Of a DNA stretch of 64,000 nt, positions 9,039 through 38,426 are shown piece by piece. The first letter of the stretch is position 1, and every line of letters begins with the position of its first letter. The translations under genes were made by a program, and so were the position numbers. Location of the stretch: contig WQZN01000010.1 in assembly GCA_009780695.1 (NCBI GenBank), positions 25,733-89,732 on the forward strand, given 5' to 3'. The notes below the pieces were generated by a model. It saw only the letters and a program-made list of their open reading frames with translations, ran no database searches and was not told where the DNA came from. This DNA is from Microbacteriaceae bacterium. Its GTDB lineage: Bacteria > Actinomycetota > Actinomycetes > Actinomycetales > Microbacteriaceae.

Positions 9039-9098
9039 GGGAGCCGGATCCGCTGTGAGGGAGCCGGATCCGGTTCCCGCACAGCGGATCCGGTTCCC
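9039..9098. repeat. 60-bp triple-palindrome repeat, copy A
   Basis: Three GGATCC cores at 9046, 9066 and 9086, exactly 20 bp apart. The outer 19-nt arms (9039-9057 and 9080-9098) pair with one G-T wobble, and the central 20 bp (9059-9078) is nearly self-palindromic. It lies between the convergent MFS and ROK genes. Just beyond it GACGTCAGCGGT occurs twice (9105-9116 and 9132-9143). Copies B and C are at 14111-14170 and 38367-38426. Confidence 0.85.
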
Positions 9099-9150: not shown

Positions 9151-10098
9151 TCAGGCGAGCGGCGGGATCATCTCCGCGCGGAAGATCAGTGCGGCAGCGC
9201 CGATGAGCGGGCCCTCGTCCGAGAGGCCGGAGGGCACGACCTTCGTCTTGCGCACGAACTCGAAGTGGTGCTCGGCGAGGCGCGCGCGGATGAAGTCGAA
9301 CAGGTCGGGCGTCGCGTGCGAGAAGCCGCCGCCGATCGCGACGATGTCGAGGTCGAGCAGTGCGGAGGCGCTGCCGATCGCCTGGCCGAGCGCCCGGCCG
9401 GTGCGTTCCACCGCCGCGCGGGCGACGAGGTCGCCCGCCGCATAGGCGGCGGCGAGGTCTTCGCCGGTCGACCCTGCGAAGCCCTGCGAGCGCGCGAACG
9501 CGACGGTGTGCGGGCCGCTCGCCATCGCCTCGAGCACGTTCGGATTGCCGAAGGTGGTCTCGCCGACGATGCCGGCGACCTCGACGTGGCCGATGTGGCC
9601 GGCGTTGCCCGTGCGGCCCGTGATGACGCGGTCGTTGGCGATGAGGCCGCCGCCGACGCCCGTCGAGACGACCATTCCCATGACGTTCGAGTAGCCCTGC
9701 GCCGCACCGACCCAGTGCTCGGCGAGCACGATCGCGACGCCGTCCATCTCGAGCGTGACGGGCACCTCGAAACCGGCATCCTTCACGACGCCCGCGACGA
9801 GCTCGCGCATCGGATAGCCGCGCCACGACGGCACGTTGAGCGGCGAGATCGCACCCGCCGCGCGGTCGATCGGACCTGCGCAGCCGATGCCGGCGCCGAC
9901 GAGCTCGGCGTCGCCGAGCGCGGCGAGCGCGAACCGCACGACGGAGGTGACGGAGGCCTCGAGCTCCGCGACCTCGGCGGAGCGCCCGGTCGCCGCGCGC
10001 AGACGCGAGCCTTCGACGAGGGCGCCGTCCGATCGGACGAGTGCGGCTTCGACCTTGGTGCCGCCGAAGTCGACGGCGAGAGCGACGGTGCTGGGCAT
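9151..10098 (-). CDS. ROK family sugar kinase / glucokinase-like
   Basis: 315 aa. The ATP-binding DFGGTK motif is at residues 10-15, with GIGCAGP and STGVGGGLI further on and the catalytic Asp in LEMDGVAI. After GHIGHVEV the family normally has a CxCGxxGCxE zinc site; here that stretch has no cysteine (VAGIVGETTFGNPNVLEAMASG). It therefore belongs to a zinc-free variant, and the substrate (glucose, N-acetylmannosamine or other) is uncertain. TAGGCT lies 7 bases before the ATG. No helix-turn-helix, so it is a kinase and not a ROK repressor. Confidence 0.85.
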   Translation of the reverse strand: MPSTVALAVDFGGTKVEAALVRSDGALVEGSRLRAATGRSAEVAELEASVTSVVRFALAALGDAELVGAGIGCAGPIDRAAGAISPLNVPSWRGYPMRELVAGVVKDAGFEVPVTLEMDGVAIVLAEHWVGAAQGYSNVMGMVVSTGVGGGLIANDRVITGRTGNAGHIGHVEVAGIVGETTFGNPNVLEAMASGPHTVAFARSQGFAGSTGEDLAAAYAAGDLVARAAVERTGRALGQAIGSASALLDLDIVAIGGGFSHATPDLFDFIRARLAEHHFEFVRKTKVVPSGLSDEGPLIGAAALIFRAEMIPPLA

Positions 10099-14062: not shown

Positions 14063-14110
14063 TCGCGAGGCGCGCTTCGCACGGTTCCTGCGTGTCTGCG
14101 CGGCACGTCC

Positions 14111-14170
14111 GGGAACCGGATCCGCTGTCCGGGTGCCGGATCCGGTTCCCTGACAGCGGATCCGGTTCCC
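14111..14170. repeat. 60-bp triple-palindrome repeat, copy B
   Basis: GGATCC cores at 14118, 14138 and 14158, 20 bp apart. The outer arms are perfect over 22 nt (14108-14129 with 14152-14173); the central unit is palindromic apart from two mismatches. It lies between the convergent panE-like and uridine-kinase-like genes. The rest of 14063-14263 shows no coding signal. Confidence 0.85.
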
Positions 14171-14263
14171 GGAAGCTCGCCATCACGCGTGCGACACCGA
14201 CGCGACGCCGCACGGATGCACAACAGGACGGACACTCGGAGACCGATGCGACGGCGCGGATCC

Positions 14264-38366: not shown

Positions 38367-38426
38367 GGGAACGCGATCCGCTGTGCGGGAACCGGATCCG
38401 GTTCCCGGACTGCGGATCAGGCTCCC
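38367..38426. repeat. 60-bp triple-palindrome repeat, copy C
   Basis: Same 60-bp size and 20-bp spacing: cores CGATCC (38374), GGATCC (38394) and GGATCA (38414). The central unit GGGAACCGGATCCGGTTCCC (38387-38406) is a perfect palindrome; the outer arms are degenerate. The right arm covers the last codons and stop of dxr, so this copy has been partly recruited into coding sequence. Between convergent genes. Confidence 0.8.

Follow-up and report, generated by a model that had tools for sequence, protein, structure and literature searches.

The window analyzed here, a stretch of 64,000 nucleotides from a Microbacteriaceae genome, contains three palindromes of identical length. This raises the question of whether they are copies of one defined element and, if so, which of the three readings offered by the original prediction applies: a bidirectional terminator, a REP/BIME-like element, or three in-phase protein sites. 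The features involved, with position 1 as the first letter of the window, are as follows.

9039..9098, no strand: copy A, 60-bp palindrome, flanked by an MFS transporter gene (plus strand) and a ROK-family gene (minus strand), both neighbors named by Pfam
9059..9078: middle self-pairing unit of copy A, 20 bp; on either side, the left (9039-9058) and right (9079-9098) units, which pair with each other
14111..14170, no strand: copy B, 60-bp palindrome, flanked by an ApbA/PanE-like gene (plus strand) and an unnamed gene (minus strand)
14109-14130 with 14151-14172: perfect outer arms of copy B, 22 bp
14131..14150: middle self-pairing unit of copy B, 20 bp; on either side, the left (14111-14130) and right (14151-14170) units, which pair with each other
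38367..38426, no strand: copy C, 60-bp palindrome, its outer arms decayed
38387..38406: middle self-pairing unit of copy C, 20 bp; on either side, the left (38367-38386) and right (38407-38426) units, which pair with each other
38417-38419, minus strand: stop codon of dxr, inside the right arm of copy C

Positions, the 60-bp length, and the 20-bp spacing of the GGATCC-type cores were verified for all three copies. Each is a near-palindrome built of three 20-bp units (left, middle, right), in which, as predicted, the left unit pairs with the right one and the middle unit with itself (27 of 30, 27 of 30, and 25 of 30 positions paired in A, B, and C, respectively). The arms of copy B are indeed perfect over 22 bp, and those of copy C, the least paired of the three, are decayed, with the dxr stop codon inside the right one. 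Closely spaced GGATCC pairs occur four times in the window, versus 0.14 expected. A long cruciform and three small hairpins had both been considered possible; folded as RNA, every copy gave one hairpin along the whole 60 bp instead of three (−62.3, −62.8, and −45.1 kcal/mol for A, B, and C, values that none of 200 shuffles matched in any of the three cases). A stable symmetric hairpin was present in all ten copies folded in this way, the most decayed of which (C3:336462) reached −35.8 kcal/mol, a value that 1 of 200 shuffles also attained.

The window belongs to a genome assigned to Gryllotalpicola (Microbacteriaceae; 2.95-Mb assembly, 86% complete; referred to as G000), and the count of three, correct for the window, rose to 21 when the whole genome was searched. 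A DNA search with copy B (which listed 20 of the 21), a mismatch-tolerant pattern search (which added C30:5102), and a covariance model built from 20 copies agreed on this total, and the model left a gap between the weakest copy (63 bits) and the next match (20.7 bits). Twenty copies have a length of exactly 60 bp and pair at 21 to 30 of the 30 positions; the remaining one, C22:8170, measures 62 bp and was excluded from two alignments. Among the congeners compared, the type strain Gryllotalpicola ginsengisoli DSM 22003 (G002) has 18 copies, one of them on contig C8 (NZ_AULK01000008.1), and G003 has five, while G001 (1.8 Mb, 88% complete) has none. In total, 42 of the 44 copies in the three genomes are exactly 60 bp long, the exceptions being the 62-bp copy and one of 59 bp in G002, which bears out the predicted unit of fixed length as a dispersed element. 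Layout and length are the same in the three genomes, but the arm sequence is mostly each species' own, with a stem base of GGGARC in G000, GCTACT in 17 of the 18 left arms of G002, and GCTGCT or GCTGTC in four of the five copies of G003.

Partial units were rare. Outside the G000 copies, the pattern search found a single weak place (C16:19177, three mismatches), and across 844 kb from the three genomes no two cores outside copies stood within 60 bp of each other. The GGATCC-type core was itself concentrated in the copies, with 34 occurrences inside and 12 outside in 464 kb of G000. At one G002 copy (C8:46158; L058:3062-3175), the right unit and some of the flank are tandemly duplicated, ca. 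52 bp apart.

Strong matches are confined to three Gryllotalpicola genomes among the 299 genomes of the family, at the sensitivity used. With stricter filters, eight of the 299 matched at an E value of 1e-5, namely, G000, G002, and G003 together with five others at ≤42.5 bits. The first covariance model had given weak matches in eight further genomes of 40, and the repeated core was absent at all five of these places that were inspected. A scan of an 84,980-species collection for the triple-core pattern, which required three perfect cores and may omit records near the window's own genome, returned 14 stretches, and the palindromic trio appeared only in G. ginsengisoli; the remaining 13 resemble direct repeats of 20 bp or repeats with loose similarity. 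There were no matches to Rfam for the whole window at the gathering threshold, to plasmid and phage records queried with copy B, or to viral contigs searched with the triple-core pattern. One of the five inspected places with weak matches was a lone 60-bp near-palindrome lacking the core (24 of 30 positions paired), in a genome of another genus of the family (G004, L070:3047-3106), with GAGCC at the base of its stem and again at the inner hairpin.

All three copies in the window lie between convergent genes, as the original prediction noted, but this is a small sample and the word "always" did not survive. Based on gene calls from a crude codon-usage script rather than a standard gene finder, the 44 copies comprised 15 in convergent, 21 in tandem, and 4 in divergent intervals, plus 4 within called ORFs (the settings of C1:47990 in G000 and 1742519 in G003 depend on overlapping calls). 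The background of intervals of at least 60 bp, copy-bearing ones included, was 73 convergent, 202 tandem, and 134 divergent across 844 kb from the three genomes, and convergent and tandem intervals were favored over divergent ones (chi-square test on counts, P = 5e-4; on bases, P = 5e-5). Within tandem intervals, 19 of the 21 copies were closer to the upstream stop (one of these with a negative distance owing to an overlapping gene call), one was tied, and one was closer to the start. The 36 nondivergent copies had a median distance to the stop of 20 nt, versus 31.8 under uniform placement (P = 0.0125), although the mean distance was not significant (P = 0.11). Copies favor gene 3′ ends.

Four called ORFs read through a copy. 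Three of these copies, judged by inspection and without a family search, fall in what look like linkers, in a fused ABC ATPase, a transporter-like protein, and a regulator-like protein. The fourth is the 62-bp copy, close to the end of an ORF that has a poor coding score in its tail. In the window, the last codons and the stop of dxr are supplied by copy C, and in G002 and G003, where no copy is present, dxr ends otherwise. Copies within ORFs and a stop codon taken from a copy are as expected of insertions.

The alignment of 35 copies from the three genomes (a set assembled before seven of the G002 copies and one of those in G003 were found) contained 85.9% of pairing cells, and 20 of the 31 pairs had changed on both sides. 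Covariation was 0.297, versus 0.124 in shuffled alignments and at most 0.120 with slid partners, and inside G000 alone it was 0.137 versus 0.081. Such covariation supports the predicted pairing. However, since the copies share ancestry, the paired changes are not independent events, and the compensatory changes could also come from hairpin-templated mutation. In G002, the outer arms are the most conserved part and the center of the middle unit is variable, a pattern that favors a hairpin over three equal binding sites.

We then compared 14 sites, covering 16 of the 44 copies, between species. An "empty" site was one with no copy in the search of the genus genomes and none seen where the sequence was read, so that a badly decayed copy could escape. 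Twelve of the 14 sites were filled in one genome only and two were filled in both, as follows.

Filled only in G000: A, B, C, C1:47990, C19:30277, C3:264781, C3:309443, C3:336462
Filled only in G002: C3:231887, C1:32921
Filled only in G003: 2680176, 2686164
Filled in both: G000 C1:67242 with G002 C3:292779; G000 C1:97548 with G002 C3:269706

The copy was absent in the relatives at 8 of the 10 G000 sites compared, and copies A, B, and C are all missing from G002 and G003. At the site of copy B, G002 is empty, and in G003 the place is taken by ca. 5 kb of different sequence that contains no copy. At the two doubly filled sites, the gene with its 3′ end facing the copy is orthologous while the other neighbors differ, and each copy carries the arm type of its own genome.

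The ROK-family gene beside copy A (window positions 9151-10098) is inverted relative to its neighbors in comparison with G002 and G003. Copies were also considered as borders of islands: from C1:47990 to C1:67301, G000 has a copy at each end (C1:47990 and C1:67242) of a 19-kb segment for which the compared stretch of G002 contains no orthologues. The two bracketing copies differ in sequence, and G002 has one copy there.

Taken together, the near-fixed length, the lineage-specific arms, the patchy occupation of sites, the copies inside genes, and the scarcity of partial units suggest that the entire hairpin is what spreads, as a miniature repeat, in the manner described for REPINs (PMC3116915). 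Our preferred reading, to which we give a probability of roughly 0.6, is that the element likely spreads as a miniature nonautonomous hairpin repeat of the REPIN kind, with an RNA hairpin of ca. 28 bp predicted wherever it is transcribed. Copies would multiply as whole folded units by means of an enzyme acting in trans, which either is not a Y1 (RAYT) transposase or has since been lost, and selection would purge insertions near promoters while sparing copies behind stop codons. The RNA hairpin at gene 3′ ends may perhaps also be useful. Plain insertion does not explain the sites doubly filled with genome-specific arm types. The lack of a Y1 transposase, of a parent element with the G002 arms, and of target-site duplications in the searches described below also speaks against this reading, as do the low copy numbers.

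REPINs are REP doublets that form hairpins and occur with RAYT transposases (PMC3116915). The Gryllotalpicola element resembles them, as they are described there, in being a short dispersed palindrome in which two inverted units and a spacer make one hairpin, in the prevalence of whole units over single ones, and in having a sequence type for each genome. It differs in its palindromic 20-bp middle unit, in its near-fixed length of 60 bp, and in its copy numbers of 5 to 21, far below the >100 that is usual for REPs (PMC2817692). A linked RAYT/REP transposase had been proposed as a check, and no Y1 domain (PF01797) was found in any of the four genus genomes (two of which are only 86 to 88% complete), with the control positive in 5 of 14 known genomes.

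REPs have been reported mostly 3′ of genes, in intervals whose flanking ORFs run in one direction or converge, and in some cases inside genes, and those tagged with CGTC are said to be without a dedicated transposase (PMC3733652). The present copies share with the GTAG- and CGTC-tagged REPs of that source an extragenic location, mostly 3′ of genes in convergent or unidirectional intervals, with some in genes. Unlike the GTAG-tagged REPs, they had no unpaired GTAG in the 8 nt next to the stem at any of the 88 feet, this motif being present only within the paired arms of G002; CGTC occurred at 6 of 88 feet, a count for which no background was computed. With neither a Y1 transposase nor a GTAG tag found, we use the term REPIN-like and not REPIN. 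Of the three readings originally offered, the REP/BIME-like one fits best, but its usual enzyme and tag were not found.

Bidirectional intrinsic terminators have a strong symmetric hairpin near gene 3′ ends, and the chief rival to our reading is that the palindrome is mainly such a terminator, or a hairpin protecting RNA 3′ ends, selected at gene ends, with the RNA role setting its length and pairing. We regard this as possible, if rather unlikely. The excess of convergent over divergent copies, the proximity of tandem copies to the upstream stop, and the median distance to the stop all agree with it, and so does the covariation of the stem; compensatory changes are a trait shared with intrinsic terminators (compensatory evolution in Bacillus cereus, PMC5381666). 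Moreover, ordinary long hairpins found in this sequence are placed likewise (22 convergent, 24 tandem, 3 divergent, and 9 in ORFs), and a different hairpin was found at the matching place of two sites, a palindrome in G000 opposite copy 2680176 of G003 and a terminator-like hairpin in G003 opposite copy C3:264781 of G000. However, there was no excess of T-tracts on either side of the copies, with at least four T in 8 nt at 3 of 88 sides (4.2% at random sites) and at least five at 1 of 88. Gene ends with a copy were also not short of other hairpins (27 ends, some copies being counted for both neighbors, compared with 400 control ends; the difference, at P = 0.07, ran opposite to that expected of a terminator). 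Also speaking against a terminator are the single dispersed family of one length, the copies inside ORFs and between divergent genes, the 12 of 14 sites not common to both genomes, and the nonsignificant mean distance to the stop.

MITEs are small, dispersed, and noncoding, with inverted ends, properties that the palindromes share. In a conventional MITE, the copies would represent the termini of some larger DNA transposon, bearing terminal inverted repeats of ca. 18 bp, and would be moved by its enzyme. The outer arms of G002, more conserved than the interior, are in line with this, but all arm matches in G002 with 0 or 1 mismatch fell in the 18 copies or in the one duplicated unit beside a copy, and no parent element with these arms was found in that genome, the one searched. 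The flanks of the 44 copies showed no excess of direct repeats indicative of target-site duplication beyond a 2-bp effect (21 versus 14.8 shuffled), which we attribute to GC at both ends, and the plasmid and phage records had no match. We consider a conventional MITE very unlikely.

The hairpin scan of G000 also revealed a second dispersed palindrome, with 14 copies.

Second family, G000: C1:36387, 38130, 100000, 139734, 292711, 294836, 308605; C3:120209; C4:35586, 122756; C5:97619; C6:107617; C12:69739; C21:5237

All 14 are 60 bp long, with outer 20-base units pairing around a 20-bp palindrome, and lie in 7 convergent, 7 tandem, and 0 divergent intervals. In their alignment, 95.4% of cells pair, 8 of 28 pairs have changed on both sides, and covariation is 0.171 versus 0.084. 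This family lacks the GGATCC-type core of the first, no convincing similarity between the two was apparent by eye, and no copy of it was found in the other three genus genomes or the rest of the 299 family genomes. Three protein binding sites in phase, two helical turns apart, would agree with the exact 20-bp recurrence of the core and with its enrichment in the copies, but fit poorly with the variable center of the middle core in G002 (as a hairpin loop would be), the conserved arms, the covariation of the outer units with each other, and a second 60-bp family without the core, and are very unlikely.

Returning to the REPIN-like reading, we tentatively extend it, as a possibility that we think doubtful, to a new class of ruler-length mobile palindromes, in which a non-RAYT enzyme would multiply 60-bp hairpins of 20 + 20 + 20 bp by reading length and folded shape over sequence, so that unrelated families (two in G000, other arm types in the congeners) could arise and spread under one rule. 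REP-type repeats have been described mainly from Proteobacteria, many of them tied to RAYT transposases, and actinobacteria are not named in the passages searched of the source (PMC3733652). The literature covered, which left most subscription papers outside the search, yielded no account of repeats of this kind from Actinobacteria or Microbacteriaceae. For an actinobacterial genus in which no RAYT was found to carry a fixed-length hairpin repeat, and for one of its genomes to carry another family laid out alike, would mean either another way to spread small hairpins or a length rule for RNA hairpins at gene 3′ ends.

In 464 kb of G000, every scanned palindrome of at least 56 bp belongs to one of the two families, and the others measure 28 to 44 bp. 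Three pairs of similar long hairpins (31 to 48 bp) were also seen in this genome, C1:202792 with C3:292605, C1:129063 with C3:274866, and C1:271524 with C3:308307, and these are possibly small repeat families of their own.
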